From: Alphaproteobacteria bacterium
Lineage (GTDB): Bacteria > Pseudomonadota > Alphaproteobacteria > Puniceispirillales > Marisalimonadaceae
Assembly (NCBI GenBank): GCA_016777705.1
Contig: JADHQW010000001.1
Location: 1 to 43,276 of the forward strand
Direction of reading: 5' to 3'
Length of the DNA stretch: 43,276 nt
Shown here: positions 9,731 through 30,347 of the stretch, in pieces
How positions within the stretch are numbered: the first letter of the stretch is position 1
How the letters are laid out: each line of letters starts with the position of its first letter
Made by a program: the position numbers and the translations under genes
The notes under the pieces: model-generated
What the model was told of the DNA's origin: nothing
The model's input: only the letters and a program-made list of their open reading frames with translations
Databases searched by the model: none

Positions 9731-9736
9731 AAAAAA

Positions 9737-9740: not shown

Positions 9741-9742
9741 AT

Positions 9743-9842: not shown

Positions 9843-10379
9843 TCAAATGTCAGGGAATTCTAGTTTATTTAAAGAAAAGTAATCTTCTTTTTTATTAGAA
9901 AATAAAAGATATACTTTTTTACAATAATTATTAAGAATATCTGGATAATTTAAATAATTATCAAGGTTTCGATATACGTTATTAGCTATGGATTTCTTCA
10001 AAGATTGAAAATCTTTGTTTTCCAAGCTCTCACAATAAACTTTTTGACGACCCATATATGATTGAACCATTTTTTTTATTTTGATATTAACACCTGCATC
10101 ACCTGCACCCACTTCCCTTAAACTGAGGTCAAGGTCTAGAAAAATTTTATCAAATAACATTTGTGATAATAATTTGCCATTAGCACCAGATTGATTAAGA
10201 AAAAATATTACAATGATTGAAAACAAAACCAAAAGATCAAATCTACCATCTATAGTATCTGGAACAGATAATTTTGTATAAAAAGACTTATTACGTGAAA
10301 TTAATACAACTTTTTCGTATATGCCATCAATTAAAGCTTGGTTTTCTGAGTTAGCATTGAGATAAGAGTTTAAAAACAT
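9843..10379 (-). CDS. Ubiquinol-cytochrome c chaperone family protein (Cbp3/UQCC1-like)
   Basis: 178 residues. The centre (FDLLVLFSIIVIFFLNQ, then LLSQMLFDKIFLDLDLSLRE and VGAGDAGVNIKIKKMVQSYMGR) carries the family's hallmark DLDxxLREhGxGDxxVxxxhKxM. Related proteins help assemble the cytochrome bc1 complex. It is divergent from bamE and upstream of plsX, its usual alphaproteobacterial neighbours. The sequence is more hydrophobic and AT-biased than typical members, but the core motif is intact. It implies a bc1 complex elsewhere in the genome, downstream of the quinone pool fed by NQR. Confidence 0.85.
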   Translation of the reverse strand: MFLNSYLNANSENQALIDGIYEKVVLISRNKSFYTKLSVPDTIDGRFDLLVLFSIIVIFFLNQSGANGKLLSQMLFDKIFLDLDLSLREVGAGDAGVNIKIKKMVQSYMGRQKVYCESLENKDFQSLKKSIANNVYRNLDNYLNYPDILNNYCKKVYLLFSNKKEDYFSLNKLEFPDI

Positions 10380-10442
10380 TTATATATATTTAATGACGTG
10401 ATATAAAAAACTATCTTCTATAACAAAATTAGGACCAAGTAC

Positions 10443-10877
10443 ATGTTTTATTTAAAATTTATTCTGATATTGGTAATATTTTTTAATGCATCATGTAGCC
10501 AAAAAATTCAAAAAACTGGATTATCAAGTGTTAAAATTAATGAAATTAAAATTGAAGAGGGAATAACTACAAAATCAAATTTAATAAAAAAATATGGACC
10601 TCCAGTTTTTGATAGTGTTTTCAATAAAAACACTGTTTACTATGTCTCTCACGTAACAGGTTATAAAAATTTAAGTGACCGAAAAACATTAAATTTAGTT
10701 GTTTTTGAAATTACATTTAATGATAAAAATATAGTAAACAAAATTAAAAAATATAACAAATTTGATTCCAAAAATGTTAAAATTTCTAAAAAGAACTCTC
10801 TAGAAAAAAATAATACTTCAATACAATTTTGGAAAGACATAATAAATAATTTAAGAAGAAGAAATGTCGAAGACTAA
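10443..10877 (+). CDS. bamE: BamE/SmpA/OmlA-like outer-membrane assembly lipoprotein
   Basis: 144-residue predicted lipoprotein with a signal peptide (residues 1-17) and the lipobox FNASC, lipidated Cys18. The mature part has the BamE-type helix-strand segment IEEGITTKSNLIKKYGPPVF, followed by VYYVSHVTGYKNL, LVVFEITFNDKN and VNKIKKYN, matching SmpA/OmlA proteins. BamE is an accessory lipoprotein of the BAM outer-membrane protein insertion machine. It is divergent from the ubiquinol-cytochrome c chaperone gene, as in other alphaproteobacteria. Its 3' end overlaps the convergent thiL end by four bases. The Lys- and Asn-rich tail after about residue 105 is variable. Confidence 0.85.
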   Translation: MFYLKFILILVIFFNASCSQKIQKTGLSSVKINEIKIEEGITTKSNLIKKYGPPVFDSVFNKNTVYYVSHVTGYKNLSDRKTLNLVVFEITFNDKNIVNKIKKYNKFDSKNVKISKKNSLEKNNTSIQFWKDIINNLRRRNVED

Positions 10878-11809
10878 AAGTGTGAGTAAGATATCTTTTT
10901 AGGCAATTCGTTAAATCCTTTAAAATTTAAATATATTTTTTGAAATTTTTTGAAAACACCTATTTTTGTTATCTTTACATCGCACTGTTTAGAAAGATCC
11001 TCTAAACGTGATTCATTTTCCTTACAAGAAAATAATAATTCATAATCATCACCGCCATATAAAGCAGCATTTAAAAGTTCTTTTTTTTGTATAGATTTTA
11101 AAGTAGGTAATGGTAATTGATTAATATTTAGTTCTAATGATAAGTTGGAATTTATAGCTAAGTGAGTTGCGTCTTGTACAAGACCATCTGAAACATCTAT
11201 CATAGATGTTGCAATGTCTCTTAATTCGATTCCTAGCTTAACACGAGGTTGAGGAAGTAAATATTTTTGTTTAGCTTGCCTAAGATCTTTAGAATTTGAT
11301 GAATAGTTATCAAGACCTACTTTCGACAAGCCTAAATAACCAGTTACATATAAGAAATCATTGATCTTGGCTCCATTTCTTGATACTGCTTGATTAGATG
11401 GTATTTCGCCAAAAATAGTTATAGTAATATTTATATGCTTTAAAGAGGCCGTTAAGTCTCCTCCAATTAATTTTATGTTATAAGCTTCTTGATCTTCTTT
11501 TAAGCCTTTAGCAAATGCTGGTATAAAAATATTTGCTTTGTTTTTGGGAACACTTATAGATAAATTATAAAAAACAGGTTTAGCACCCATTGCGGCCATA
11601 TCAGACAAATTTACTCTTAAACATTTTTTTGCTATATCTCTAGGATTTTCATTGCCAAAAAAATGAATACCTTCAGCTAAAGTATCTGTGCTTATTACAA
11701 TATCGGTATTAAGTTTTGGTTTATATAAAGCAGCATCATTTATAAGGTTTTGAGCTTCTTTAGAAGTAAGCGGCTTAAAATATTTATTAATAAATTCAAA
11801 TTCGTTCAT
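10874..11809 (-). CDS. thiL: Thiamine-monophosphate kinase
   Basis: Phosphorylates thiamine monophosphate to the active diphosphate cofactor. The 311 residues belong to the PurM/AIR-synthase ATP-binding fold: VISTDTLAEGIHFF, RVNLSDMAAMGAKP, LIGGDLTAS, SRNGAKINDFLYVTGYLG, MIDVSDGLVQDATHLA and ALYGGDDYELLFS are all typical of ThiL. It lies downstream of nusB in the glyA-to-thiL run. No de novo thiamine genes are visible here. Confidence 0.96.
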   Translation of the reverse strand: MNEFEFINKYFKPLTSKEAQNLINDAALYKPKLNTDIVISTDTLAEGIHFFGNENPRDIAKKCLRVNLSDMAAMGAKPVFYNLSISVPKNKANIFIPAFAKGLKEDQEAYNIKLIGGDLTASLKHINITITIFGEIPSNQAVSRNGAKINDFLYVTGYLGLSKVGLDNYSSNSKDLRQAKQKYLLPQPRVKLGIELRDIATSMIDVSDGLVQDATHLAINSNLSLELNINQLPLPTLKSIQKKELLNAALYGGDDYELLFSCKENESRLEDLSKQCDVKITKIGVFKKFQKIYLNFKGFNELPKKISYSHF

Positions 11810-11824
11810 TTTATATATTTTTCG

Positions 11825-12295
11825 TCAGCTTGACAAAGAAATTTTTTCTAATATTCCGTTAGCAAAATTTGTATTTCCACCAAAAGCTTCAATAATACTA
11901 ATGTACTCATTAATAATAGTTACTTTATTAAATCGTTTTAAAAGGCATAATTCAAAAGCAGCTGATCTTAAAATAGATATCTCAGTTTTGCTTAGCCTTT
12001 CGAATGACCAATCTTTAGACAAGTTATCTGATATAATTTGATCAAGTTTTGGTAAGTTTTTTTCTACTCCTTTAATAATCAAATTAAATAAATCTCTGTC
12101 AAAACTTTTAATATTTAAACTCGATAGTACATGTATTAAATGGTTTTTTAAGTAATATTCAATAATTATGTCAATTTCATTTATTAAAAAAGAAGCCTCA
12201 TATAGAACCTGTGTAGAACAAATCCTAGAAGCTGTTTTTTTTCTTATTGATAAATGTCTAATATTATTTAATGATTTTGTTTCAAGATTTGTCAT
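11825..12295 (-). CDS. nusB: Transcription antitermination factor NusB
   Basis: All-helical RNA-binding protein that, with NusE (S10), binds boxA in rRNA leaders. Recognisable parts are RKKTASRICSTQVLYEASF at the N-terminus, the LSKDWSFERLSKTEISILRSAAFEL core and TIINEYISIIEAFGG near the end. GTG 12304 would give 159 residues; ATG 12295 (MTNLETK) gives 156 and is preferred. Either way the start lies inside the 3' end of ribH, which suggests translational coupling. ribH-nusB-thiL is the common alphaproteobacterial order. Confidence 0.94.
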   Translation of the reverse strand: MTNLETKSLNNIRHLSIRKKTASRICSTQVLYEASFLINEIDIIIEYYLKNHLIHVLSSLNIKSFDRDLFNLIIKGVEKNLPKLDQIISDNLSKDWSFERLSKTEISILRSAAFELCLLKRFNKVTIINEYISIIEAFGGNTNFANGILEKISLSS

Positions 12296-12737
12296 AGATA
12301 TCACTGTTTTTTATATCCATTAATGATAAACACGCTTCAGCGGCTCCTGCACCTTTATTTAATTTTTTGGGGTCTGACCTTTCTAATGCTTGCTTTTCAT
12401 TTTCAACAGTTAAAATTCCATTACCTATAGGAATTGAAAATTTAATTGATAAATCACACAAAGCTCTTGCTGATTCATTTGAAACAATTTCAAAATGATA
12501 AGTTTCGCCTCTAATAACACATCCAAGAGCAATATAGCCATGAATAACAGGGTTATTTTTTGATTTTTCATATATTAATTTAATCGCTGGTGCAATTTCC
12601 AAAGCACCTGGAACATATAAGAGTTTATAATCAACAGATTTTGATTTTAGGACCTTTATTGCACCCTTTATTAAATTATCTGTAATCTGTTGATAATATG
12701 GAGAACATACTAAGAGTATATTTTTATTTACTGACAT
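12282..12737 (-). CDS. ribH: 6,7-dimethyl-8-ribityllumazine synthase
   Basis: Penultimate riboflavin enzyme, joining the ribityl-pyrimidine with 3,4-dihydroxy-2-butanone 4-phosphate. The 151 residues show VPGALEIAPAIKLI (substrate-binding segment), ALGCVIRGETYHFEIVSNES with the catalytic His, and IPIGNGILTVENEKQALERS, near identical to family consensus. Ends overlapping nusB; eight bases after ribBA. Confidence 0.97.
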   Translation of the reverse strand: MSVNKNILLVCSPYYQQITDNLIKGAIKVLKSKSVDYKLLYVPGALEIAPAIKLIYEKSKNNPVIHGYIALGCVIRGETYHFEIVSNESARALCDLSIKFSIPIGNGILTVENEKQALERSDPKKLNKGAGAAEACLSLMDIKNSDIYDKS

Positions 12738-12744
12738 TGACTAA

Positions 12745-13842
12745 TTAACCTAATTTTTTCCAGTTCTTAATAGTTAATCCAAAACCATCTAAACCTATTG
12801 CAGAAGTTGAGGAGTTGTATAATACTGTCATATTTTTTACACCAAGGTCTAATAAAATTTGAGCTCCTACTCCTATATCTCTTACATTCTGACTTTCTAG
12901 GGATGGTTTAGCAATTATTTGTGAAATTTTCTTAGAAAGAGATTCAGATGAAGAATCTCTTATTAATATAATTATACCATTTTTATTTTTAGCTATTGTA
13001 TTCATAGCAAGAGATAATTCTGAGCCATTTCTTTTGCTAGATTGATCACCAAGTACATCAGAAAGCAAATCCAATGCATGAACTCTAACTAAAATAGTTT
13101 CTTTAGTATCAATAACACCTTTAACTAGAGCCATATGCTCTGAGTTATCAATTATGTTTTTAAAAACTATTATTCTCCAATCACCTCCAAATTTACTTTC
13201 TAAAATTGATTCAGATACTCTTGTAATAAACGTTTCATTTTTTCGTCTATATGAAATTAAATCTGATATAGAACCAATTTTAATATTGTGTTTTTTTGAA
13301 AATTTTATCAAATCTGGCAACCTTGCCATTTCACCATTATCATTCATTATTTCACAAATAACTCCAGATGGGTTTGAATTAGCAAGTTTGGCAATATCAA
13401 CTACAGCCTCTGTGTGCCCTGCTCTTATTAGTGTACCTCCATCTTTTGCAATGAGTGGAAAAACATGCCCAGGAGTTGTTATATCGCCACTTAATGCATA
13501 TTTATTTATTGCTGTTTTTATTGTCTGTGACCGGTCCGATGCAGAAATACCTGTTGTTACACCTTCTCTAGATTCAATCGAAACAGTAAATGCTGTTTCA
13601 AACCTGCCTTCATTCCTTCTTTCCATTAATGAAAGACCTAACTTTTCTGATTGAGACCTTGTTAAAGATAGGCAGATAAGACCTCTTCCATATTTAGCCA
13701 TAAAGTTAATAGATTCTGGTGTGGCATATTCACCTAGTACACATAAATCACCTTCATTTTCTCTATTTTCATCATCAACTAAAATAAAAATTTTACCTTC
13801 AGAAGCGTCTTTTATGACTTCTTCGATGTTAGATAATGTCAT
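12745..13842 (-). CDS. ribBA: RibB (3,4-dihydroxy-2-butanone 4-phosphate synthase) fused to a degenerate GTP cyclohydrolase II domain
   Basis: 365 residues. The N-terminal RibB domain is intact: VDDENRENEGD (22-32, metal-binding acidic loop), GISASDRSQTI (98-108), TPGHVFPL and RAGHTEAVVD (140-149). It makes the four-carbon precursor of riboflavin from ribulose 5-phosphate. The C-terminal RibA-like domain (about 205-365) keeps the fold (LVRVHALDLLSDVLGD, IGVGAQILLDLGV) but lacks the three zinc cysteines (normally SECLTGDVFGSxxCDC) and the QEGRGIGL active-site stretch, which reads DSSSESLSKK. It therefore should not be a GTP cyclohydrolase II. Similar RibB-with-inactive-RibA fusions are common in proteobacteria. 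Neighbours are ribE (33 bases before) and ribH. Confidence 0.95.
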   Translation of the reverse strand: MTLSNIEEVIKDASEGKIFILVDDENRENEGDLCVLGEYATPESINFMAKYGRGLICLSLTRSQSEKLGLSLMERRNEGRFETAFTVSIESREGVTTGISASDRSQTIKTAINKYALSGDITTPGHVFPLIAKDGGTLIRAGHTEAVVDIAKLANSNPSGVICEIMNDNGEMARLPDLIKFSKKHNIKIGSISDLISYRRKNETFITRVSESILESKFGGDWRIIVFKNIIDNSEHMALVKGVIDTKETILVRVHALDLLSDVLGDQSSKRNGSELSLAMNTIAKNKNGIIILIRDSSSESLSKKISQIIAKPSLESQNVRDIGVGAQILLDLGVKNMTVLYNSSTSAIGLDGFGLTIKNWKKLG

Positions 13843-13875
13843 TAAAACTCCAAAATTTTACTAAATTATATATTT

Positions 13876-14487
13876 TCACTTAATTTCATTAAGTCTATTT
13901 AAATATCTAGCTAAAACATCTATTTCTATATTTACACTTGTATTAACAACATAGTTTTTAAAATTAGTGTTTGACCACGTAAAAGGAATAATATTTACAC
14001 TAAAAGTATTTAAATCAACTTCATTAACTGTCAATGAAACCCCATCAATAGTAACAGAACCTTTAGAAGCTATAAATTTCAAATGATCACTATCCATAAA
14101 AAAAGAAATTTTATAAGAGCCTTCAATTTGTTGTATTGATTGAATACTTGCCGTTGTGTCGACATGCCCATAAACAAAATGCCCACCTATCTCATCGCCC
14201 ACTTTAAGTGATTTTTCAATATTAAGAATTGATCCAATTTTCCAATCAAGAAAATTAGTTTTTGACGCCGTCTCATTACTAATGTCAAAAAATAAAATAT
14301 TATTAGATATTTTTTTTAATGTTAAGCATATTCCTGAACAACATATAGAAGCCCCAATTATTAACTTTTGCTCTTTGATAGAAAGATTTGAAGTATCATT
14401 ATTTTTTAATTCAATAGATATCTCCCAATCGGCGGGATGGTCTATACTCTTTATTTCCCCAATGTGACTGATAATTCCTGTAAACAT
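13876..14487 (-). CDS. ribE: Riboflavin synthase, alpha chain
   Basis: Last riboflavin step: dismutation of two lumazines. The 203-residue protein has the tandem lumazine-binding repeats. It starts MFTGIISHIGEI; the first repeat has ICCSGICLTL and the second SVTIDGVSLTVNEV, with GDEIGGHFVYGHVD between them. Start ATG 14487 directly follows the ribD stop. Some nomenclatures call it ribC. Confidence 0.96.
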   Translation of the reverse strand: MFTGIISHIGEIKSIDHPADWEISIELKNNDTSNLSIKEQKLIIGASICCSGICLTLKKISNNILFFDISNETASKTNFLDWKIGSILNIEKSLKVGDEIGGHFVYGHVDTTASIQSIQQIEGSYKISFFMDSDHLKFIASKGSVTIDGVSLTVNEVDLNTFSVNIIPFTWSNTNFKNYVVNTSVNIEIDVLARYLNRLNEIK

Positions 14488-15594
14488 TCAATGACTTTCA
14501 TTTGATAGTTTTCTGATTTCTAATACATCATTACCAAAAGTTCTTGTTGATAAAATTTTGTAATTATTGAGATTTTCCATTTCCAAAGAATTTAATTCAT
14601 TTACAAATGGAATGCCATCGTTACCAATAATATGACCTGATCTAAATATAAGTAATTGGTCTATTAAATTCAATGACAATAAAATTGTATTCAGTTTAGA
14701 ACCACATTCAATTAATAAATTGTTAATTCCTCTATTTGCTAAATCTTTGAAGATAATATTAAAATAATCTAAATTAGAAATGTTATCTTCTAATTTTATC
14801 TTTGATACAAATTCTTTTTCATCTAGATGTTTGTTCATGTTTGATACAGAAAAAAGAACTATATCTGAATAAGGTGATTCATTATATATTTTATGGTTTT
14901 TTGATACTTTTAAATATCTATCTAATATAACTCTTAATGGGCTCCTATATTCTAGTCCTTTTAATCTGCAATCCATTAAAGGATCGTCAGAAATAATTGT
15001 AGAACTAGAAGTCAAAATTGCATCATTTTGTGATCTAATAAAATGAACATATGCGCGACTTAGACCATTTGTTATCCATTTTGACCTATTATTTTTTAAA
15101 GCTATTTTTCCATCTAATGAACAAGCTACTTTAAGTGTAATATAAGGTTTTTTATATATTAACCTTGAAAAAAAACCATTATATAACGATATACTTTCAT
15201 CTTTCATAAAATTCTCTATTACTTTTATATTATTATTTTTGAGAATTTTTATACCTTTGTTAAAAGTTCTTGAGTCCATATCAATACAACTAATATAAGC
15301 CTCAGTAATACCTGTTGTACAGATCAGTTCTGCACATGACAATCCATTTTTATTTTTGTGAGCACACGGCTCAAGGGTTAAATATATGGTTGAACCAACT
15401 AATTTTTTTTTGTTTTTAACATTATTTATTGCGTTTTCTTCAGCATGTGGTCGACCTCCTGGTGATGTTCTTCCAGAAGAAATTATATTTTCATTTTTGA
15501 CTATTACGCAACCTACAGGTGGATTCATTCCCGTAGACCCTTTAGATCTTAATGCTTCAAGTATAGCATATTTCATCCATTTATTGTGATTCAC
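14488..15594 (-). CDS. ribD: Bifunctional riboflavin deaminase/reductase RibD
   Basis: Two steps of riboflavin synthesis. The N-terminal cytidine-deaminase-fold domain shows NPPVGCVIV, the zinc site GRPHAEENAI (His and catalytic Glu) and LEPCAHKNKNGLSC with the two Cys ligands. The C-terminal reductase domain begins near residue 150 with KPYITLKVACSLDGKIALKN and ends with IFRSGHIIGNDGIPFV. GTG 15594 is the best start because NHNKWMKYAILEA matches the family's first helix; ATG 15576 would cut into it. 368 residues is normal. It heads ribD-ribE-ribBA-ribH, just after nrdR. Confidence 0.96.
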   Translation of the reverse strand: MNHNKWMKYAILEALRSKGSTGMNPPVGCVIVKNENIISSGRTSPGGRPHAEENAINNVKNKKKLVGSTIYLTLEPCAHKNKNGLSCAELICTTGITEAYISCIDMDSRTFNKGIKILKNNNIKVIENFMKDESISLYNGFFSRLIYKKPYITLKVACSLDGKIALKNNRSKWITNGLSRAYVHFIRSQNDAILTSSSTIISDDPLMDCRLKGLEYRSPLRVILDRYLKVSKNHKIYNESPYSDIVLFSVSNMNKHLDEKEFVSKIKLEDNISNLDYFNIIFKDLANRGINNLLIECGSKLNTILLSLNLIDQLLIFRSGHIIGNDGIPFVNELNSLEMENLNNYKILSTRTFGNDVLEIRKLSNESH

Positions 15595-17915: not shown

Positions 17916-18158
17916 TTAAAAATTTTGAATGATAAGAAATAAATATTCAGTTTTAACTAACCAATATATTAAGTATGTTGGAAATAATGAAACTATAGTA
18001 CAAAGTAAGACTTTAAGTTTTAAATGTGTCTTGGTTGGAGCTGAATTTGCGTTACCTAATTCTAAATTTCTAGAAACATTTATTCCTATTGGTAAAGACA
18101 TGAAAAATACAATCATCCATACCATTAAGTATACTAAAAAAATTGATACTAAGCTCAT
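17916..18158 (-). CDS. DUF1467 family membrane protein
   Basis: 80 residues with two hydrophobic helices: LVSIFLVYLMVWMIVFFMSL at the N-terminus, then PIGINVSRN, a polar link with NSAPTKTHLKLKV, and a second helix TIVSLFPTYLIYWLV. This is the DUF1467 pattern (LPxGv, then GAPxxxxLxxK). An AGGAG precedes ATG 18158, only nine bases after the RNase J stop. The family commonly follows RNase J in alphaproteobacteria. Function unknown. A frame on the opposite strand over the same bases shows no family match and was rejected. Confidence 0.88.
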   Translation of the reverse strand: MSLVSIFLVYLMVWMIVFFMSLPIGINVSRNLELGNANSAPTKTHLKLKVLLCTIVSLFPTYLIYWLVKTEYLFLIIQNF

Positions 18159-18167: not shown

Positions 18168-19823
18168 TTAAACCCTAATTAAATGCACATTCATTGAAGG
18201 TCTTTTATGGAATAATGCCTTAAAATCTTTTCTAATATTTTTTTTGATATAATCACAAATTTCCTCATCAGAATCTTTGTTTTGAAAATTATCGTTATTA
18301 AAAATAGTTTCAATTTTTAAAGAACAGTCTAATAAAAAATCTTCTATATTATTTCTATCAGACACTCCTGTCTGTGTTATTTGTGGAGGTGAAATTATGT
18401 ATCCATCCATATCAATTACAATTGAGATATGAACAAAGCCATTCCATAGTGTATGTCTTCTGGACACAAACCTATCATTATCAATAGGAACTACATCACC
18501 ACCATCAAAAACATTTGTTATGAATTTTTTTGTATCTAAAACGGTCGGAGATAAACCATTTAATTTTATAATATCTCCATTTTTGGGTTTAATTACGTTA
18601 GGAACTTGACAATCATTAGCTAATTTAGCATGTGCTTCAATATGTTTTCTTGTGCCATGAACAGGTATTGAAATTTTAGGCTTTATAAAAGAATACATTT
18701 CTATTAGCTCATCTCGAGATGGATGACCAGATACATGGATATCTGCATCTTCATCTGTAATTAATTCTACGCCGTTATCAAGAAATCTATTCTGTACCTT
18801 TAATATAGCATTCTCGTTGCCAGGAATCTTTCTACTTGAAAAAATTATAGTATCCCCTTTTATTAAATTGACAAATTTGTCAGTATTTCTAGAGATTCTT
18901 GACAATGCTGAATTTGGTTCACCTTGAGAACCAGTAGCAATTACTAAAACGTTAGACCGAGAAATCACTTTAAAATCTTTTAAAGTCAAAAAATCTGGAA
19001 CATGTTTTAAGTAACCAACCTCTTTAGCAGCGTCTATAGCTCTAAGTAAAGATCTGCCTATGACTAAAATTGAACGATCTGTCTTTAAAGCTATATCTAA
19101 AATCGATTTAACTCTACTAATATTTGAAGAAAAGCATGTAATAAGGACAGCGCCTTGTTTATCTTTAACTACTTTGTACAAACCTTCATAAGCAAAATCT
19201 TCGGAAGGCGTTTTTCCTTTAACTAAAGAATTGGTTGAATCACAAATCATTGCTAAAACACCATTATTCCCTAATGAACGATAAGTATCAAAATCAAAAT
19301 TTTCATTTAAATTTTTTGCTTGTTCTAATTTCCAATCACCTGAATGAAAAATATTTCCTTCTTTAGTTGATATTAAAAATGATACTGGATCTGGAATTGA
19401 ATGAGATGTTTGAATAGTGTTAATTATAAAATCACCTAGTTTTAGCTTTTTACCTATAGAAAGGACATTCAGAACTAGTTTTGTATTATTATTACTTTCT
19501 CTTAATTTTCTCTTAAGTAAAGCAATTGTAAAAGCAGTCCCCCATATGGGGCAATTAATTTTATCAGCAAAATAAGGTATTGCTCCTATATGGTCTTCAT
19601 GACCATGAGTTAACAAAATACCTAAAAACTTATCACCTAAAGACTGAATAAAATCAAAATCAGGCAGTAACACATCAATACCTAAATCAGTTTCATCAGG
19701 AAATGATATTCCTAAATCAACTAAAATCCATTTATCTTGATAATGATACAAATTTGCATTCATTCCAATTTCCTCAGAGCCACCAACAGGTAGAAATAAC
19801 AAATCTGAATTAACCCAACTCAT
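18168..19823 (-). CDS. rnj: Ribonuclease J
   Basis: Metallo-beta-lactamase/beta-CASP RNase acting in mRNA turnover and RNA 5'-end processing. The 551 residues contain the zinc site LTHGHEDHIGAIPY (His73, His75, Asp77, His78), IFHSGDWKLE, MICDSTNSLVKG, the beta-CASP region with IATGSQGEPNSAL, HVSGHPSRDELIEM and IPVHGTRKH. These are typical of RNase J. It follows coaX by 16 bases and is translated just ahead of DUF1467. Confidence 0.96.
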   Translation of the reverse strand: MSWVNSDLLFLPVGGSEEIGMNANLYHYQDKWILVDLGISFPDETDLGIDVLLPDFDFIQSLGDKFLGILLTHGHEDHIGAIPYFADKINCPIWGTAFTIALLKRKLRESNNNTKLVLNVLSIGKKLKLGDFIINTIQTSHSIPDPVSFLISTKEGNIFHSGDWKLEQAKNLNENFDFDTYRSLGNNGVLAMICDSTNSLVKGKTPSEDFAYEGLYKVVKDKQGAVLITCFSSNISRVKSILDIALKTDRSILVIGRSLLRAIDAAKEVGYLKHVPDFLTLKDFKVISRSNVLVIATGSQGEPNSALSRISRNTDKFVNLIKGDTIIFSSRKIPGNENAILKVQNRFLDNGVELITDEDADIHVSGHPSRDELIEMYSFIKPKISIPVHGTRKHIEAHAKLANDCQVPNVIKPKNGDIIKLNGLSPTVLDTKKFITNVFDGGDVVPIDNDRFVSRRHTLWNGFVHISIVIDMDGYIISPPQITQTGVSDRNNIEDFLLDCSLKIETIFNNDNFQNKDSDEEICDYIKKNIRKDFKALFHKRPSMNVHLIRV

Positions 19824-19839
19824 TTAAAACCCTTTTATC

Positions 19840-20643
19840 TTATTTTTTTAAATTATTGAAATTATGTAAATATAAATTAACTAAGCCAATTAAGGTTAAA
19901 TCTTCTTCAATATGATCAATACAACACAATGATTTTTTAAATAAATCACTCAAACCACCAGTTGCTACAACTTTATAGTTTTTGTATTCATCTAAAATTT
20001 TAATTTTATTTATAAGACCTTCAATCATCGATACATAACCCCAATAAATACCTGATTCCATTGCATTGACAGTATTTTTTCCAATAATTGACTTTTTATT
20101 AGACAAAGGTTTTAAGGCAACTCTAGGTAACCTAGCAGCAGCCAAGTACAAAGCTTCTAGTGATAAATTAACACCGGGAGCTATAATGCCGCCATTATAA
20201 CTTCCATCAATTCCAACCAAATCAAAAGTTGTGGCAGTTCCAAAATCAATTACTATAGCTGGAGATAAATTAAGACATTTTATAGCAAATGAGTTAACCA
20301 AACGGTCAGCACCTGCTTCTTCAGGGTTATCAATGTTTACTTTTAAGCCTAACCCTAAAATATCATTATCAATTACCAATGGGTTAATTTTGAAATATTT
20401 TTTGATAAATATTTTAATGTTAAAAAGAGTTTCATTAACCACAGATGCAATACAAATTCCAGTAATATCATCAATTTTAACATCAGATAATGTTAACATT
20501 TGTGAAAGCCACGGATAATAACTGTCAGCTGTTCTCTTAGAGTTATTATGTATTCTCCAACAAGCTATTTTATTAATACTTTTATCATAAGAGTATAAAG
20601 CAAAAACAGTATTAGTATTACCACAATCAACAACTAAAATCAT
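19840..20643 (-). CDS. coaX: Type III pantothenate kinase
   Basis: First step of coenzyme A synthesis, ATP-dependent phosphorylation of pantothenate. The 267 residues show the type III (ASKHA-fold) signatures: VVDCGNTNTVFALY, NPEEAGADRLVNSFA, VIDFGTATTFDLV, GGIIAPGVNLSLEAL and VATGGLSDLF. It lies between birA and rnj, the normal alphaproteobacterial position downstream of the nuo operon. Confidence 0.96.
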   Translation of the reverse strand: MILVVDCGNTNTVFALYSYDKSINKIACWRIHNNSKRTADSYYPWLSQMLTLSDVKIDDITGICIASVVNETLFNIKIFIKKYFKINPLVIDNDILGLGLKVNIDNPEEAGADRLVNSFAIKCLNLSPAIVIDFGTATTFDLVGIDGSYNGGIIAPGVNLSLEALYLAAARLPRVALKPLSNKKSIIGKNTVNAMESGIYWGYVSMIEGLINKIKILDEYKNYKVVATGGLSDLFKKSLCCIDHIEEDLTLIGLVNLYLHNFNNLKK

Positions 20644-20655: not shown

Positions 20656-21381
20656 CTAAACAAAAGTGAAATTCTCAACAGATAAATATTCTGTAATTTT
20701 TGAATTAGTTTTTACTTTAATACCACCACTGTCTCCTATACCTAAAAAAACACCATTTAAAAGATTGGATTTTGAGTTAACGTTTATAATTATGTTTTTA
20801 TTTATGTTGAACATCTTTTTATTAATGTCTTCTTTAAAGAAGACAAAACCAAATTTTTCCCAAGAATAATAATTGTAAAATACTTTGTTCAATATTTTTA
20901 AGCCTATATTTTTAATATTAATGGAACCTTTTAAATGATCCTTTAACTTTGTAGTACCCCACTTTGTTTCAAGAATAGGAGTTTTTAAAATATTTAAACC
21001 TATACCAACTATTATAAAATTATCAGAAGACTCTAACAAAACACCAGAAATTTTCTTGTTGTCTACTAATACATCATTGGGCCACTTTAGATCAATTAAA
21101 TTACTATTTACTCCTAAGTCAACTAATACTTGAACTATTGAAAAACCAACTATCACTGATAATTGATGCCACAAAGATTTATCACTTTTTGGCTTAATAA
21201 TTGTTGATAAGAATAAATTTCCTTTTGAAGAAGTCCATTTGTTTTGATTTCTTCCTCTTCCTTCAGTTTGTGTATGAGCTAAATAAGAGGTTCCTTCAAC
21301 TTCACCACTTAAAGCGGCATTGAAAGCAATATCATTAGTGCTAGTACAAACATTTAATATATTTAAGTTAATATTTAACAA
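20656..21381 (-). CDS. birA: Biotin--[acetyl-CoA-carboxylase] ligase
   Basis: Attaches biotin to the carboxyl carrier protein of acetyl-CoA carboxylase. The 241 residues contain only the catalytic part: TQTEGRGRNQNKWTSSKGNL (biotinyl-AMP loop), DLKWPNDVLVDNKKISGVLLE, and IVGIGLNI. There is no N-terminal helix-turn-helix, so it is not a BirA-type repressor. The start is TTG 21381, supported by AGGA (21388-21391) six bases upstream. Its usual upstream neighbour is nuoN; here it is the orphan NuoL-like gene. Confidence 0.94.
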   Translation of the reverse strand: MLNINLNILNVCTSTNDIAFNAALSGEVEGTSYLAHTQTEGRGRNQNKWTSSKGNLFLSTIIKPKSDKSLWHQLSVIVGFSIVQVLVDLGVNSNLIDLKWPNDVLVDNKKISGVLLESSDNFIIVGIGLNILKTPILETKWGTTKLKDHLKGSINIKNIGLKILNKVFYNYYSWEKFGFVFFKEDINKKMFNINKNIIINVNSKSNLLNGVFLGIGDSGGIKVKTNSKITEYLSVENFTFV

Positions 21382-21417: not shown

Positions 21418-23106
21418 TTAAAAACGTAGAAAATATTTGTTATATAAAATAAATATTCTATAGTATTTTAGTTTATAATTATTCAATATAAATGGCATTA
21501 TTAAATAATTTACAACAGCCAAAAACATTCCTAAAAGACTAAAAAACGTTAAAAAATATTTAACTTTATCAGACAAATTTAAAATGGAATTAGTAGAAAG
21601 ATCAATATCATTATATATTAATGAATTCCATAAATGTTCTGCATTTATACCGTCAAACAAGTTTTTTGTTAACCAGCCAGCAAAAACTAAACATAAACCC
21701 AAACAAAAAAATATGAGTTTGTTTGTAGATGAGTTTTCATTGATTTTATTAAATTCATGAATATTACCCTTATTCTTTCCTAAAAATATCAATATTATAT
21801 TTTTTAATAAAACATAAGAAATCAAAAAAGAAGCACTCATACCCATTAACATAGAAGGAACTAAAATAGCTTGCTCCGAAGAATACAAAGTTGAAATAAT
21901 GACTTCATGAGAATAAAACCCTGAAAAAAAAGGAACCCCAGACGTCGAAAAAAATGCAATTAAGGTGAATAAAAACATAGAGGGCATTTTAAAGGCAAGA
22001 CCACCCATTGCTTTAACATTAGAAACATTGTTCATCTTTGTCATAACATAGCCTAAACACAAATAAAGCATTGTTGTAGATAAAGAAAAGGTAATATAAT
22101 AAAACATTGCAGCATGATATACTTTGATTGAAAAAATATAAAATATTATAGATGCTTGAGAAAAAGCTAAGTAAGAAATTACATATTTAATGTTTGATGT
22201 GTTAAATGATAAATAAATTAAAATGAAAATTAAACAAAGACTTAAAGGAATCATTGTATTTAAAAAATTAGGAGTAGAAAAAATTAAAGGAAAAAATCTA
22301 AATGTATAAAAGATAATTAATGGAAGTAATGCAGAACAAAAAATCAAGGTAAGTGTAGGTATATTTAAATTTTTAATGTCATATAGACAATTTGAGATAA
22401 AAAACTGTCTAAATCTTAATAAACATGAAAAAAATAAAAGGAACACAGCTAATTCAGCCTTATTTATAGTAATGCCCCAAAATAAAATATTATTGTTAAC
22501 AAAGTTATTATTTTCAAAAATAATTTCAAAATAAATAGAATTATTTAGTTTATAAAGTAGATAGACACTAAAAAAAAACGCTAAATCAGAAATACGATTG
22601 TGTAAAAAAATTTTACTACTGTTTATATAAGTTTCGTCCGCATTTTTACGATTAACAAGAAGAAAAAAAGAAAATAAAATTATTTGCCACGCAATGAAAA
22701 ATTGAATTAAGTTGTTTGAAGAAATTATAGTTAACATTCCAATTGTTAACAAAGAAACATTTCTTATTAACTTTAAATTTAAATACTGTTCTTTAAAAAA
22801 ATTAATTGAGTATATAGTCACTAATGAAGACACAAATGTTACTATGCATACAAATGTTGACACATATATATCTAATCTTAATGACCATGCTACAAAATCT
22901 TTATTAAATTCAATCAAGGGATAAAAATATAATGGAATATCGTTGTTTAATTGAAATAATTTAATAAAAAGATAAACACTTAAACAAAAAGAAAAAATCA
23001 TACAAAAACAATTTATAATAAATGCAATATTTAAGTGATTACTAGAAAATGGTAACAATGAAATAAACAAACTAAGTAAAGGAAATATAAAAATAAAAAT
23101 TTCCAT
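21418..23106 (-). CDS. Orphan NuoL-like membrane subunit without the usual proton-path residues
   Basis: 562 residues, about 14 hydrophobic segments. It aligns with the complex I antiporter-like subunit NuoL: TIYSINFFKE near 97-106, LIQFFIAW at 133-140, SSKIFLHNRISDLAFFFSVYLLY at 163-185, SNIKYVISYLAFSQASI at 304-320, and MGGLAFKMPSMFLF followed by SGVPFFSGFYSHE at 367-401. Positions matching E. coli NuoL residues of the proton path are changed: E144 to Gln141, K229 to Arg231, H254 to Phe256, the HxxxH..K region to Tyr/Phe/Thr, and K399 to His400. Proton pumping therefore looks unlikely. No other nuo gene is in the window. The place, directly before birA, is where nuoN normally sits. The frame is intact. 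A DabB- or Mrp-like role is an alternative, but no partner gene is adjacent. Confidence 0.75.
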   Translation of the reverse strand: MEIFIFIFPLLSLFISLLPFSSNHLNIAFIINCFCMIFSFCLSVYLFIKLFQLNNDIPLYFYPLIEFNKDFVAWSLRLDIYVSTFVCIVTFVSSLVTIYSINFFKEQYLNLKLIRNVSLLTIGMLTIISSNNLIQFFIAWQIILFSFFLLVNRKNADETYINSSKIFLHNRISDLAFFFSVYLLYKLNNSIYFEIIFENNNFVNNNILFWGITINKAELAVFLLFFSCLLRFRQFFISNCLYDIKNLNIPTLTLIFCSALLPLIIFYTFRFFPLIFSTPNFLNTMIPLSLCLIFILIYLSFNTSNIKYVISYLAFSQASIIFYIFSIKVYHAAMFYYITFSLSTTMLYLCLGYVMTKMNNVSNVKAMGGLAFKMPSMFLFTLIAFFSTSGVPFFSGFYSHEVIISTLYSSEQAILVPSMLMGMSASFLISYVLLKNIILIFLGKNKGNIHEFNKINENSSTNKLIFFCLGLCLVFAGWLTKNLFDGINAEHLWNSLIYNDIDLSTNSILNLSDKVKYFLTFFSLLGMFLAVVNYLIMPFILNNYKLKYYRIFILYNKYFLRF

Positions 23107-23247: not shown

Positions 23248-24468
23248 CTATCCACCAAAATCATCTAGCATGATGTCATCTTTATCAACCCCAAGATCCA
23301 ATAACATATTAATAACAGATTGGTTCATCATAGGTGGACCACACATGTAATATTCACAATCCTCAGGAGCTGGGTGATCTTTTAAATATTGTTCAAAAAG
23401 TATATTATGGATAAATCCTTTGTGACCGGTCCATTTATCTTCAGGCATGGCGTCAGACAAACCAACATGCCAAGTAAAATTTTTATTTTCAGCTGCTAAC
23501 TTATCAAAGTCTTCAACGTAAAACATTTCTTTCTTAGACCTTGCTCCATACCAAAATGAAACTTTACGATCTGTTTTAATTCTATTAAACTGATCGAAAA
23601 GATGACTTCTCATAGGAGCCATGCCTGCTCCACCACCTATAAAAACCATTTCTTTATCTGTGTCCCTAGCATAAAATTCACCAAAAGGACCTGAAATAAC
23701 AACTTCATCACCTTTTTTTAAATTAAATATATAAGAGGACATTTTACCTGCTGGAATTCCTGTTGAACCTGGAGGAGGAGAAGCTATTCGAACATTCAAC
23801 ATAACTATACCTTTTTCAGCTGGACAATTAGCCATAGAATAAGCTCTTTCAACGGGTTCATCACTTTCAGCGTTAAAGTCCCAAATTTTAAACCTATCCC
23901 AATCTTCGTGATATTCTTTACCTACTTCGTAATCTTTATAAGATAAAGAATATTTAGGAGCTTCTATTTGTATATAACCACCTGCACGAAAATTCACATC
24001 TTCACCTTCAGGTAATTCAAGTATTAATTCTTTAATAAAAGTTGCAACGTTGTCATTACTTCGAACCTTACATCTCCATTTTTTAACGCCAAAAACTTCT
24101 TCAGGCACCTCAATTTCCATATCTTGTTTAACAGCAACCTGACAAGATAATCTGTCACCGCAAGATGCTTCCCTTTTATTAATATGACCTTGTTCGGTAG
24201 GAAGTATAGCCCCACCACCAGAATGAATTTTAACCCTACATTGAGCACATGTTCCACCACCACCACAAGCAGAAGGAACAAAAAGCTTTTCAGCAGCAAG
24301 TGTTTGTAAAAGTTTTCCTCCAGCTGGAACTGTTACGGTTTTTTCTCCATTTATAGTAATATTGACATCACCAGTTGAAACAAGCTTGCTTCTTGCAAAA
24401 ACTATTACTGTAACAAGTGATAATACAATCATTGTAAAAAGAGTTATACCTAAAACAAAAGTGTCCAT
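23248..24468 (-). CDS. nqrF: Na+-translocating NADH:quinone reductase subunit F
   Basis: Electron entry point of Na+-NQR: oxidises NADH through FAD and passes electrons to a 2Fe-2S centre. The 406 residues have an N-terminal membrane helix, a ferredoxin domain with Cys68, Cys74, Cys77 ([12 protein letters not shown]) and Cys109, a flavin site RAYSMANCP, an NADH region with [24 protein letters not shown], and the C-terminal LDDFGG typical of NqrF. Start ATG 24468 has AAGGA upstream. It is the last gene of nqrABCDEF. Confidence 0.98.
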
Positions 24469-24479
24469 ATTAAATATCC

Positions 24480-25088
24480 TTAAAGTTTAACGCCTGAAAA
24501 GCACATAAAAGCCATTGCCATAAGGCCAGCTGTAATAAATGTTATACCAAGCCCTTGAAGACCATCAGGTATATCGCTATATTTTAATTTTTCTCTTACA
24601 CCAGCCATGGTAGCTATAGCTAAAGCCCATCCAAAACCAGAAGCAATCCCATACGTTGTAGCTTCAGAAAAATTATAATCTCTTTCAACCATGAATAAAG
24701 ATCCTCCTAATATAGCACAATTAACTGTAATTAATGGTAAGAATATACCCAGTGCATTATATAATGGAGGAAAATACTTATCTAATACCATTTCCAAAAT
24801 TTGAACTAAAGCAGCAATAACTCCGATATAAGATATTAATCCTAAAAATGTTAGATCTACATCAGGAAATCCTGCCCAAGCTAGAGCACCAGGCTTAAGT
24901 AGATATGTAAGTATTATGTTATTAGCTGGAACAGTAATTGTCTGAACAATAATTACAGACACACCCAAGCCAATGGCTGTGGATATTTTTTTTGAAACCG
25001 CAATAAATGTGCACATCCCGAGAAAAAAGGAAAGAGCAAGGTTTTCTACAAATATAGCTTTAACAGCTAATGAAATCAAAGCTTCCAT
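24480..25088 (-). CDS. nqrE: Na+-translocating NADH:quinone reductase subunit E
   Basis: Membrane subunit that with NqrD forms a pair of inverted helical repeats around an intramembrane iron centre. The 202 residues have six helices; [20 protein letters not shown] and [14 protein letters not shown] at the start match NqrE closely, and MCTF carries a conserved Cys. A TTG at 25091 could add one residue; ATG 25088 is preferred because it overlaps the nqrD stop by one base (TGATG), which suggests coupled translation. Confidence 0.97.
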
Positions 25089-25741
25089 CAATGGACCTCT
25101 AAAGTCTGAATCTTATATTCACGAGCTTCAACTTGAGATTTTTTCCATGACCTAACACCCCAGATTAAAAATCCAATAATAAAAAATGCTGAAGGAGGTA
25201 ACAGTAATAGTCCATTTGGGACATACCATCCACCGTTACTTACAGGATCTAAAATTGTGACGCCAAATAAAGTACCAGAACCAAAAAGTTCTCTAACAAC
25301 GCCTACACACATCAATAACAAACCGTAACCCAGACCGTTACCAACACCATCTATAAAAGAGTCAACTGGGGTATTTTTCATGGCAAAAGCTTCAGCTCTT
25401 CCCATAACAATACAGTTAGTAATGATTAAGCCAACAAAAACTGAAAGTGTTTTTGATATTTCGTACGCATATGCTTTAATTATCTGGTCAACAAGTATAA
25501 CAAGAGATGCAATTATAACCATTTGAACAATTATTCTTATAGAATTTGGAATATAATTTCTTAACATTGATATAAAAAGAGAAGAAAATCCAGTAACGGC
25601 TATAACAGCCAAAGACATAACAAACGCAACATTTAAAGATGAAGTTACAGCTAATGCTGAACAAATACCTAACACTTGAAGTGTAATTGGATTATTGTCA
25701 ACTAGAGGATCAATTAACAGTTGTTTTCTTGTCTGCGACAT
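25088..25741 (-). CDS. nqrD: Na+-translocating NADH:quinone reductase subunit D
   Basis: 217-residue membrane subunit, sister of NqrE. Typical stretches are [29 protein letters not shown]-like [20 protein letters not shown] with the conserved Cys, and [21 protein letters not shown]. The ATG overlaps the nqrC stop by one base (TAATG). The Cys in the FVGLIITNC segment and the one in NqrE are the expected iron ligands that NqrM helps load. Confidence 0.97.
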
Positions 25742-26532
25742 TATGCCTCTCCATTTTTTAAATTTTTAAGAAATTTTTTAAATCCAGACTGACCCATCCA
25801 AAATTTAACTAAATTATTAACCCCATTAGAAGTAAGTGTGGCACCTGCTAAAGCGTCAATATGATACTCTTTTTCTTTTGAAGTTTTGGCAACTTGAATC
25901 ATTAAATCACCATTTTCGTTATTTAACTTCTTACCTTTCCATTGTGCTTTCCATTTTGGATTATCAACTTCTGCACCTAACCCAGGAGTTTCAGCATGCT
26001 GATAAAATTGCAAACCAAATATATCATTTAAGTTATTTTCTAAAGCTATAAAACCATAAAGGGTAGACCACAAACCATACCCATGAACTGGAAGTATGAC
26101 TTTATCTAAAGAACCATCATTGTTTTTTAAAAGATAAATAGTTACAAAATTTGCCCTTCTCCCAATTGAAGCAGGGTCTTCTTTTAAAGCAATACTTAAT
26201 AAAGGATCTTGAGAAGCTTTTTTATCATCAAAAACCAATGGATCGAACTTATTCGTAAATTTACCATTTTCTAAATCAACAATTAAAGGTTCAAATGATG
26301 AAAAAGTTTTTTTAATGTTGACCCCTTCATAATATTTGCCAGCAACTTGTAAAATATTTTTTTGTTTATCAAGAGCTTTATTCACTTCCTGTTTAGATTT
26401 TAAATTAACAGCTGCAAAAGAGACAACCATAGAACATATAAAACACAAAGTTGTAGCAACAATTATTGTTTTAGCCATACCATCAACTGGCATTTTTTTA
26501 AATTTTACAAATATATTATTTGAGTTAGACAT
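25741..26532 (-). CDS. nqrC: Na+-translocating NADH:quinone reductase subunit C
   Basis: Periplasm-facing subunit carrying covalent FMN. The 263 residues have one N-terminal membrane helix (about 20-42) and an FMN-binding domain. The flavinylation motif is DALAGAT with acceptor Thr232 (family consensus Dxx[ST]GA[ST]); ApbE, encoded nearby, would attach the [13 protein letters not shown] and [14 protein letters not shown] are family landmarks. It overlaps the end of nqrB by eight bases. Confidence 0.97.
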
Positions 26533-27733
26533 TAAAAATGGACCTTCTTTTAATATTAGCCATTACAACAAAATGGTCTATTAAAGGTGCAAATATATTT
26601 CCAAATAAAATCGCTAGCATCATGCCCTCAGGAAATGCTGGGTTTAAAACTCTTATCATTACTACCATAAAACCAATTAATGCACCGTAAATGTAACGTC
26701 CTAAGTTTGTATGACTTCCAGAAACTGGTTCAGTAACCATGAACACTAAACCAAAAGCATAACTTCCTATAACTAGATGCCAGTACCATGGCATGCTAAA
26801 CATTGGATTAGTATCTGAACCAATCCAATTCAAAAAAGATGAAAAAGCAACCATTCCAAACAAACATCCAACAACCATTCGATAATTAGCAATTTTAGTT
26901 AACAAAAGAAAACATAAGCCAATTGCACAGGCTAATGTAGATGTTTCTCCTAAAGATCCTTGAATAGTACCTAAAAAAGCATCTGTCCAAGTAATCCCAT
27001 AATTACTTAAACTTTCATATCCCTCAGAGGCAGATAATCCTAAAGAAGTTGCGCCGGAAAAACCATCAACCGGTGTCCAAATTGAATCACCTGACATGTA
27101 AGCTGGATAAGCAAAATATAAAAATGCACGACCAGTTAATGCAGGGTTTAAAAAGTTTTTACCAGTACCACCAAAAACTTCTTTGGCAACAACAACTCCA
27201 AAAGCAATACCTAAAGCAACTTGCCAAAGTGGTGTAGAGGCAGGTAAAGTTAGTGCAAACAACATTGATGAGACAAGGAAACCTTCGTTAACCTCATGGC
27301 CTCTGATGGTTGCAAAAACTACTTCACAAATACCACCTGCTAACAATGTAGTAATATAAATGGGTAAAAAATATAACAAACCATGAAAAACGTTTGACAC
27401 TATGCTCGTAGGATCTATTCCTAGTCCCGTTAATTGTAAGAGATATATCCTCCACCCTGCTATTTCATTAATATTTAATGTTGATAAAGCTGTATTTGTT
27501 TGAAAACCAGTATTGTACAAAGCCCACAAAACACACGGTATAGTAGAAATAACAACATAAGTCATTATTCTCTTCATATCGACAAAGCTACGAGCATGAG
27601 GAGCAACTTTAGTAACGGTGTTACTTGTGAAAAAAATTGTCTCTATCATTTCAAAAATTGGATAGTACTTTTGAAATTTACCACCTTTTTCAAAATGAGG
27701 CTCAATTGAGCTAAAATAACTTCGTAGTGACAT
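26525..27733 (-). CDS. nqrB: Na+-translocating NADH:quinone reductase subunit B
   Basis: Main Na+-conducting and quinone-reducing membrane subunit, carrying a covalent FMN. About ten helices. The flavinylation motif DGFSGAT is at residues 223-229, acceptor Thr229. GHEVNEGFLVSSMLFALTLP and GGTGKNFLNPALTGRAFLYF are characteristic. A TTG at 27736 would add one residue; ATG 27733 is chosen because AAGG lies seven bases upstream. It starts four bases after the nqrA stop codon begins. Confidence 0.97.
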   Translation of the reverse strand: MSLRSYFSSIEPHFEKGGKFQKYYPIFEMIETIFFTSNTVTKVAPHARSFVDMKRIMTYVVISTIPCVLWALYNTGFQTNTALSTLNINEIAGWRIYLLQLTGLGIDPTSIVSNVFHGLLYFLPIYITTLLAGGICEVVFATIRGHEVNEGFLVSSMLFALTLPASTPLWQVALGIAFGVVVAKEVFGGTGKNFLNPALTGRAFLYFAYPAYMSGDSIWTPVDGFSGATSLGLSASEGYESLSNYGITWTDAFLGTIQGSLGETSTLACAIGLCFLLLTKIANYRMVVGCLFGMVAFSSFLNWIGSDTNPMFSMPWYWHLVIGSYAFGLVFMVTEPVSGSHTNLGRYIYGALIGFMVVMIRVLNPAFPEGMMLAILFGNIFAPLIDHFVVMANIKRRSIFNV

Positions 27734-27736
27734 CAA

Positions 27737-29080
27737 TTAACCTTCTTTCTCTATTTTCTGCAGACTATCTCTCAAAGCAGAACCGTATTCATATTTTGCT
27801 GGGCAGGCAAATGTACACAAAGCTAAATCTTCTTCGTCTAATTCAAGAGCACCCAGTGATTGAGCCACATCTGTGTCCATTACTAAAAGAGCTCTTAACA
27901 TTTGTGTAGGTAAAAAATCTTGTGGCATTAAAGTTTCAAATACACCTGTTGGAACCATTGCCCTTCTGCCACCATTCAAATTTGAAGTTAAATTAAATAA
28001 TTTAAAAAAACCAAAAGCAGATAACAAAACAGGCATTACTGAAAATTTATTCGGCTGTGGCTTTATCCATCCAAAAAAATGTTTTTCTAAATCCTCTTTG
28101 ATTATAGTAATTTGACGAGAATATTTACCTAAGTAAGCAAGCTCATTAGTAGCATGAAATCCAGAAAGAACAGAACCTGAAATAACTCTACAACCTTCAG
28201 CTTTATTATATTCGCCTTCTAAAATATCGTCTAACGATGCACCCAAAACTGTTTTAACTAATCGAGGCTTAATAGCATGTGGCCCAGCTATGGATACAAC
28301 TCTATTAATATCAATAAAACCTGTTAAAAACAGTTTACCAATCGCAATAACATCCTGATAGCCAATTGACCAAACAGTTTTAGAAGCAGAGGGAGCGTCT
28401 AGAAAGTGCATATGTGTTCCTGCTAATCCAGCTGGATGAGGTCCTGCGAATTCATATGTATGATGATCGTTGACTTTGATCTGACTATCATTTTTTGTGC
28501 AAATAAATACATTACCTTTTGTTAACAAAGATATTTTTTTAACACCTTCATTAAAAGCTTTTAAATCTTGATCAATTATAAGTTCTGCATCTGGGCATAA
28601 AGGTTCAGTATCCATTGCAGTAATAAAAATAGATGAAGGCACACTATCGCCTGATGGGACCTTAGAGTAAGGCCTTGTTAAAAAAGAAGTCCATAAACCA
28701 CTATCAAATAAACATTTTTTTACGAATTGTTCCTGAGATTTTTCATTAGAATGAGATTTAGTTATATCAATGCCTTTATCAGTTATACTTTCAACATCAA
28801 TCACAACACTTAGAAGAACCCTTTTATCTCCCCTATTTATAACTTTTACAATACCTTTACATGGTGAAACATATGAAATTTCTGGGGAGTCTTTATGACA
28901 AAAAAGAGGAGTACCTCTTTTTACTTTATCACCCACACTAACAAGCATTTTAGGTTTTAAGCCTTTATAATCAGACCCTAGTACCGCGACAGTTTTTGGA
29001 TTTTTCTCACCATGAATAACTTGATCTGGAATTCCTAAAACAGGAATGTTTAAACCTTTCTTTAAATTAAAAATATTCAT
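27737..29080 (-). CDS. nqrA: Na+-translocating NADH:quinone reductase subunit A
   Basis: Cytoplasmic subunit of Na+-NQR, linked to quinone binding, and first gene of the operon. The 447 residues begin MNIFNLKKGLNIPVLGIPDQ, the normal NqrA start, and contain VGDKVKRGTPLF, PCKGIVKVINRGDKR, FAGPHPAGLAGTHMHFLDA, SGSVLSGF, and a C-terminal ALELDEEDLALCTFACPAKYEY, all typical. A 244-base divergent spacer separates it from apbE. Confidence 0.97.
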   Translation of the reverse strand: MNIFNLKKGLNIPVLGIPDQVIHGEKNPKTVAVLGSDYKGLKPKMLVSVGDKVKRGTPLFCHKDSPEISYVSPCKGIVKVINRGDKRVLLSVVIDVESITDKGIDITKSHSNEKSQEQFVKKCLFDSGLWTSFLTRPYSKVPSGDSVPSSIFITAMDTEPLCPDAELIIDQDLKAFNEGVKKISLLTKGNVFICTKNDSQIKVNDHHTYEFAGPHPAGLAGTHMHFLDAPSASKTVWSIGYQDVIAIGKLFLTGFIDINRVVSIAGPHAIKPRLVKTVLGASLDDILEGEYNKAEGCRVISGSVLSGFHATNELAYLGKYSRQITIIKEDLEKHFFGWIKPQPNKFSVMPVLLSAFGFFKLFNLTSNLNGGRRAMVPTGVFETLMPQDFLPTQMLRALLVMDTDVAQSLGALELDEEDLALCTFACPAKYEYGSALRDSLQKIEKEG

Positions 29081-29324: not shown

Positions 29325-30347
29325 ATGAAATACTTTAATTATTTTTACTTTTTAACAATTTCTATATTTTTGTTTTCTTGTTCAAATGAGCAAACTCAAA
29401 ACGTTGAACTTAAAGGAAATGCAATGGGAACATTTTATTTCATTAAGTTGATTGATGTGCCTAAAAAAATAAAAGAAGAGAAATTGACACTAGAAATAAA
29501 TAAAACTTTGCTTGAAATTAATAAGATTGTATCAAATTGGGATAACTTATCAGAAATAAGTGTTTTAAATAGTAATAAAACATTATTACCTATAAAAATT
29601 TCAAATAATTTATTAGACGTCTTTAAAACAGCAAACTTTATTCATATTAAGAGCAACGGATATTTTGATATTACACTTGATCCTATAATAGATCTATGGG
29701 GATTTGGTTACAAAAAAGATAAAATGAAAAAAAAACCTCCTCTTAAAGAAGATGTTTTAGAAACATTATTATTAGTTAACCAAAAAAAATATTTAGAAAT
29801 TAATCAATCTAACAATGAGTTAGTAAAAAAAAATAAAGATGTTTCATTTAATTTGTCTGCAATTGGTAAAGGGTACGGAATTGATTTAATTGGTAAAAAA
29901 TTAAGAAATTTAAAAATAAATAATTTTCTTATCAATATAGGCGGCGATATACTTACAAATGGTTACAATAGTAAGAAACAAGATTGGGTTATTGGAATAG
30001 AAAACCCTAATTTACAACAACAGTATATTAAAGAAATTGTAAATGTTACCAATAAGGGAGTGGCCACTTCTGGAGATTACAAAAATTTTTTTGATAATGA
30101 TGGTAAAAAGTATTCACATATAATAAATCCTAAATCAGGTATGCCAATCAATCATTCAACAAAATCTGTAACAGTTATAGAAGAAAGTGCAATGCTTGCA
30201 GATGGTTGGGCAACTGCATTTTTAGCCATGGGGAGTACTCAAGGTTTAAAAATTGCTGAAAAAGAAAAAATAGCTGTAATATTTATCGACAAATCTGAAA
30301 AAAAATTAATTAAAGTAACAAGCAATGAATTCAAAAAGTTAAAATAA
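29325..30347 (+). CDS. apbE: FAD:protein FMN transferase ApbE
   Basis: Transfers FMN from FAD onto Thr/Ser residues of exported or membrane flavoproteins, here expected to be NqrB and NqrC. The 340 residues start with a lipoprotein signal; the lipobox FLFSC gives lipidated Cys19. Family motifs are GNAMGTFYFI, FDITLDPIIDLWGFG, LSAIGKGYGIDLIG, INIGGDILTNG, ATSGDYKNFF with SHIINPKSGMP, and ADGWATAFLAMG, which includes the metal-binding Asp. It is divergent from nqrA rather than following nqrF, and is followed by nqrM. Confidence 0.96.
   Translation: MKYFNYFYFLTISIFLFSCSNEQTQNVELKGNAMGTFYFIKLIDVPKKIKEEKLTLEINKTLLEINKIVSNWDNLSEISVLNSNKTLLPIKISNNLLDVFKTANFIHIKSNGYFDITLDPIIDLWGFGYKKDKMKKKPPLKEDVLETLLLVNQKKYLEINQSNNELVKKNKDVSFNLSAIGKGYGIDLIGKKLRNLKINNFLINIGGDILTNGYNSKKQDWVIGIENPNLQQQYIKEIVNVTNKGVATSGDYKNFFDNDGKKYSHIINPKSGMPINHSTKSVTVIEESAMLADGWATAFLAMGSTQGLKIAEKEKIAVIFIDKSEKKLIKVTSNEFKKLK

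Follow-up and report, generated by a model that had tools for sequence, protein, structure and literature searches.

An intact gene derived from nuoL lies directly behind the Na+-NQR operon in 16 species of one alphaproteobacterial genus (g1), and the protein it encodes has lost most of the titratable axis of NuoL. This gene, here called the orphan, is a real, conserved and partly known oddity. We describe it in a window of 43,276 nucleotides, the whole stretch of DNA analysed, from a metagenome-assembled genome (MAG; G000, contig JADHQW010000001.1 of GCA_016777705.1). Synteny shows that nqr replaced nuo in place, with the nuoL-derived gene staying between nqrF and birA.

Results

Locus order and history

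On the minus strand, the window reads nqrA-B-C-D-E-F, orphan, birA, coaX, rnj, DUF1467, rpiB, glyA, nrdR, ribD and ribE (Table 1). The complex I relatives in the order have nuoA-N at this site. In g11, g13 and a second family of the order, the arrangement is nuoJ-K-L-M-N-birA-coaX-rnj-DUF1467-rpiB-glyA. The equivalent arrangement in g1 is nqrA-F-orphan-birA-coaX-rnj-DUF1467-rpiB-glyA, and in the sister genus g12 nqrA-F is followed by birA. It is this shared site that identifies the exchange as one made in situ. Either g12 lost the orphan or the g1 ancestor alone kept it.

Table 1. Features of the orphan locus in the window
Feature	Position	Strand	Basis
DUF1467 gene, in the order seen after nuoN in relatives	17916..18158	-	
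coaX and rnj (RNase J), next in the conserved gene order	18168..20643	-	
birA, immediately downstream of the orphan; after nuoN in complex I relatives	20656..21381	-	
NuoL-derived membrane protein (the orphan; 562 aa) without the proton-axis residues	21418..23106	-	sequence, profiles, alignment, structure comparison
H400 codon (K399 in E. coli NuoL)	21907..21909	-	counted from ATG at 23106
Y336-T344 segment (H334, H338, K342 in E. coli NuoL)	22075..22101	-	counted from ATG at 23106
R231 codon (K229 replaced), Arg in 16/16 and presumably paired with D174	22414..22416	-	counted from ATG at 23106
D174 codon (D178 in E. coli NuoL), invariant in 16/16	22585..22587	-	counted from ATG at 23106
Q141 codon (E144 in E. 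coli NuoL)	22684..22686	-	counted from ATG at 23106
nqrF-E-D-C-B-A (Na+-NQR), where relatives hold nuoA-N	23248..29080	-	
apbE-like gene, oriented divergently from nqrA; accompanies nqr in relatives	29325..30347	+	

Outside G000, the g1 genomes contain neither a canonical NuoL, NuoM or NuoN nor a NuoF of ~446 aa. In G000 itself, canonical nuoL/M/N are found on contig C68 and nuoF on C96. C68 (L071, positions 1-15036) carries a second nuoJKLMN-birA-coaX-rnj-DUF1467 locus whose flanking genes are 30-39% identical to those of the window. Its rnj is 39% identical to the window rnj, while rnj genes from other genera and families in the order reach 46-51%. Based on this low flank identity, the lack of a counterpart in other g1 genomes and the 4.56% contamination score of the MAG, C68 is probably foreign, a contaminant from outside the order, and we rejected it as evidence for complex I elsewhere in G000. 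By the same logic, C96 is probably foreign.

The orphan is a NuoL homologue with a shortened C-terminus

The first-pass annotation of this DNA had described an intact 562-residue NuoL homologue and had named dN/dS across close relatives and a structure-based comparison with NuoL as checks. The description is borne out. The frame starts with ATG and runs for 562 codons without interruption on the minus strand; the plus strand of the same interval is stop-rich. The best profile families are NuoL models, every one clearly below its cut-off: NCBIfam NDH_I_L (TIGR01974) matches with E=4.6e-55 and 187.7 bits (cut-off 407.5), and PRK06590 with 188.1 bits (cut-off 556). In Pfam, the matches are Proton_antipo_M (5.7e-29) and Proton_antipo_N (1.7e-5), with no other domain. 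Homology to NuoL/ND5 is certain despite the sub-cut-off scores. NuoL is the nearest family by both profile and structure, and the profile scores point to NuoL rather than NuoM or NuoN as the origin.

Identity to canonical NuoL copies is about 22%. In the phylogeny, the orphans group together in one clade, which sits next to alphaproteobacterial NuoL and has a stem of 2.0 substitutions per site. The gene has the lowest GC content at the locus (21-22%; neighbours 25-36%), and a promoter and terminator scan around it gave counts no different from shuffled expectation.

An AF2 model was built from the 16 orthologues, with a mean pLDDT of 67 and a pTM of 0.71, at which fine detail is unsafe. The model aligns with NuoL/ND5 over the whole orphan length (Z about 31-34), and 452-477 residues align with E. 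coli NuoL (Z about 32-33). The closest solved structures are NuoL/ND5 chains, with Paracoccus at the top. The product is predicted still to fold as an antiporter-type helix bundle. It ends near E. coli NuoL residue 529-542, 71-79 residues short of the canonical copies, and stops at or before the lateral helix, with the TM16 end missing. The lost end is the part that ties NuoL into complex I.

Distribution in g1 and its relatives

The 16 intact orphans are 559-573 aa long and always lie directly behind nqrF, with birA next wherever the contig continues. The other 15 are 35-40% identical to the window copy. An order-wide search found canonical NuoL of 640-660 aa in the majority of the other genera; the short form was confined to g1. 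Five genomes that seemed to lack the orphan (G003, G009, G014, G020 and G061) hold terminal fragments of it at contig ends, and their absence calls were rejected. A contig scan gave a single match, a contig-end fragment (L038) evidently from the same genome as G061. The g1 assemblies repeatedly break at or in the orphan (L127-L133, the contig ends in these five genomes), which may reflect low coverage or strain variation.

The orphan is missing from two congeners (G028 and G030) and from both genomes of the sister genus g12 (G067 and G068), in all of which nqrF and birA are contiguous with 80-99 bases between them. When the nqr tree is rooted on g12, G028 and G030 are nested among the bearers and branch with the G015 group (support 100); their placement in the housekeeping tree is less firm. 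The nested position indicates that the gene was lost in these two genomes. The orphan is dispensable, and its loss in G028 and G030 together with its absence from g12 shows that NQR does not need it.

The orphan gene tree matches the nqr tree in its main splits, with G025 unusually divergent. The G025 copy (L082:5891-7597) is just 46-51% identical to those of close relatives, although the genes on either side of it look ordinary; it may have undergone allele exchange or a burst in rate. Separately, G030 contains an extra Proton_antipo_M homologue with two in-frame TGA stops (L041, C57:821-1651), and an intact set is present on its contig C29.

Proton-path residues

We aligned the 16 orphans with E. 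coli NuoL, the C68 NuoL and 15 NuoLs from the same order. Relative to E. coli NuoL, the window copy carries E144>Q141, K229>R231, H254>F256, H334>Y336, H338>F340, K342>T344, K399>H400 and D400>E401, reproducing all of the substitutions listed at E144, K229, H254, H334/H338/K342 and K399 in the first-pass annotation. Among the 16 orphans, E144 is replaced by Gln, Tyr or His and H254 by Phe, Tyr, Leu or Ile. H338 is Ser in 14 and K342 is Leu in 13, while the K399 position is Asn in 10, Lys in five and His in the window copy. The axis is lost family-wide at E144, H254, H338, K342 and D400 and mostly at K399, and its positions are mostly hydrophobic in relatives. His persists at H334 in nine of the 16. 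The earlier statement that the whole proton path is mutated is too strong, since D178 and R175 (D174 and R171 in the window) are kept in 16/16 and K305 in 12/16, and the replacement of K229, which is Arg in 16/16, keeps the charge.

The NuoL ion pair is formed by K229 and D178, and the proton exit to the outside by K399 and D400 (PMC9271201). The pair persists across the 16 orphans as an invariant Arg-Asp. With R231 and D174 invariant and the axis residues lost, the ion pair was kept and the transfer path was not. Because Arg gives up a proton poorly, R231-D174 probably acts as a lasting salt bridge with a structural role, not as a gate. The family-wide loss of the titratable axis supports the non-pumping character proposed earlier, and the orphan should not carry out redox-driven proton pumping.

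The loss is not confined to these residues, contrary to the earlier view that just these were selectively lost. In the window copy, 89 of the 134 other canonical-invariant columns are changed and 45 kept, compared with none of the eight path columns kept (Fisher one-sided P=0.04; family-wide P=0.12). Only 32/134 are retained family-wide. Among themselves, the orphans share 78 invariant columns, including R231, D174, R171, R270, K435, H450, K454 and E490.

Selection

The dN/dS of the orphan is 0.20-0.37 in ten pairs at 69-89% identity, and 0.198/0.81 = 0.24 between the window copy and its nearest relative, G061 (93 shared codons). Values for the neighbours are 0.01-0.03 for nqrF, 0.05-0.09 for coaX and 0.07-0.27 for birA. 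On these codon comparisons, the orphan is under moderate purifying selection, weaker than that on nqr. Base-composition arithmetic at 22% GC predicts a stop about every 11 codons, compared with 559-573 open codons in 16 species. A pseudogene was rejected on length, conservation and dN/dS, which is not near 1, and the 16 intact orthologues agree with the first-pass judgment that this is not recent decay.

Discussion

The best explanation as a whole, to which we give an even chance, is that a nuoL outlived its operon and then took on a non-pumping accessory role. Its evolutionary part is very probable. In an ancestor of g1, as the synteny shows, the nuo operon directly before birA-coaX-rnj-DUF1467 was exchanged for nqrA-F at the same place, and the nuoL-derived gene remained between nqrF and birA. 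The orphan then evolved very fast, losing the axis and the C-terminal end, with the remaining ion pair fixed as Arg-Asp. Moderate purifying selection may keep it for an accessory, dispensable membrane role in sodium-based energetics; its weak constraint relative to the neighbours fits a marginal function.

The nature of that role is more tentative. An NQR partner, a scaffold or a transporter part had been suggested, and on gene order the NQR partner is plausible. The position beside nqr is the sole link to NQR, and inheritance at the old nuo locus explains it equally well. Only two NQR columns separate orphan bearers from non-bearers, without clear meaning. An accessory role in Na+ energetics would most likely be exercised beside or bound to NQR; this is the least certain step and, by itself, rather unlikely. 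The more specific proposal, a non-pumping, lineage-specific accessory subunit of this Na+-pumping NADH dehydrogenase recruited after complex I loss, is doubtful; if true, it would be a hand-over between two unrelated respiratory enzymes at one locus.

The strongest rival, which we consider unlikely, is a stand-alone carrier or channel that moves Na+, K+ or H+ off the classical axis and balances the Na+ circuit of NQR. NuoL expressed alone lets a B. subtilis mrpA deletion strain grow in salt, an assay in which E144Q, K229A and H254A matter little (PMC4938563). The window copy naturally carries the first of these, and the invariant residues listed above remain in the orphans. The same assay probed T257, M258 and V259 of helix VIII, with M258I and V259L the worst; all three are replaced in the orphans, T260 is an invariant Pro, and the mostly hydrophobic axis positions likewise argue against a carrier. 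It is rather more unlikely that the orphan is a slowly decaying nuo relic that does little or nothing and whose frame weak selection keeps open. Such a relic would be consistent with the disappearance of two thirds of the NuoL invariants, the fast evolution, the outright loss in G028 and G030 and the absence from g12, but 16 intact copies of near-equal length in DNA of 21-22% GC, the 78 invariant columns, the dN/dS values and the fixation of R171, D174 and R231 point the other way.

It is improbable that the orphan joined another antiporter complex, for example the Mrp-type system of the genus. Of the complex I subunits, NuoL resembles MrpA most (PMC4938563), and g1 has throughout an Mrp-like cluster in which three D-type subunits are accompanied by split A/B parts (G000 C15, L073:3681-11003), but the same Mrp-type subunits occur in the orphan-less G028 and G030, and weakly in G067. 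DabB is a NuoL-like protein acting outside complex I. The corresponding reading of the orphan, as a DabB-like partner of an inorganic-carbon pump, is highly improbable: DabA (PF10070) was found in 0/40 g1 genomes by a search that detects the B. subtilis and Haloferax controls.

Operon replacement normally removes the whole old complex. In g1, a core membrane subunit has persisted genus-deep despite the loss of its pumping residues, a natural experiment on what the NuoL fold can do in the absence of the proton path. Its fixed Arg-Asp in place of Lys-Asp separates the structural from the proton-transfer roles of K229 and D178, a current question on the mechanism of complex I.

Comparison with known systems

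With NuoL/ND5, the orphan shares the sequence family, the antiporter fold, W143, R175, D178, several landmarks and the site before birA-coaX-rnj. It differs in standing without a surrounding complex I, in the lost axis, in the Arg at K229 and in the absent TM16 end. Nowhere in g1, outside the likely contaminant contigs of G000, is it encoded with other nuo subunits, and nqrA-F occurs without it in G028, G030, G067 and G068, unlike a subunit always found with NqrA-F. DabB and MrpA are likewise NuoL-type proteins functioning without complex I. The orphan differs from them in the lost titratable axis, in the lack of DabA in g1 and in the absence of the C-terminal MrpA/MrpB-type domains of MrpA, as it ends at residue 562.

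The nearest precedent is in SAR116, where nqr took the place of nuo in groups LGC2-C and LGC2-D, with nuoL immediately beside nqr; HTCC2181, which has the most closely related nqr, lacks this nuoL (PMC8547437, 2021). The genus g1 is probably SAR116 low-GC subclade 2, matching the description of LGC2-C/D. That nuoL takes up one sentence of the paper, and the main text does not cover channel loss, the missing C-terminus, selection, the losses in congeners or the order of the nuo locus. Our literature search turned up no description of the orphan's residue loss or of its function. The presence of nuoL beside nqr in SAR116 is known (PMC8547437), and the channel loss, the constraint and the locus history appear to be new.
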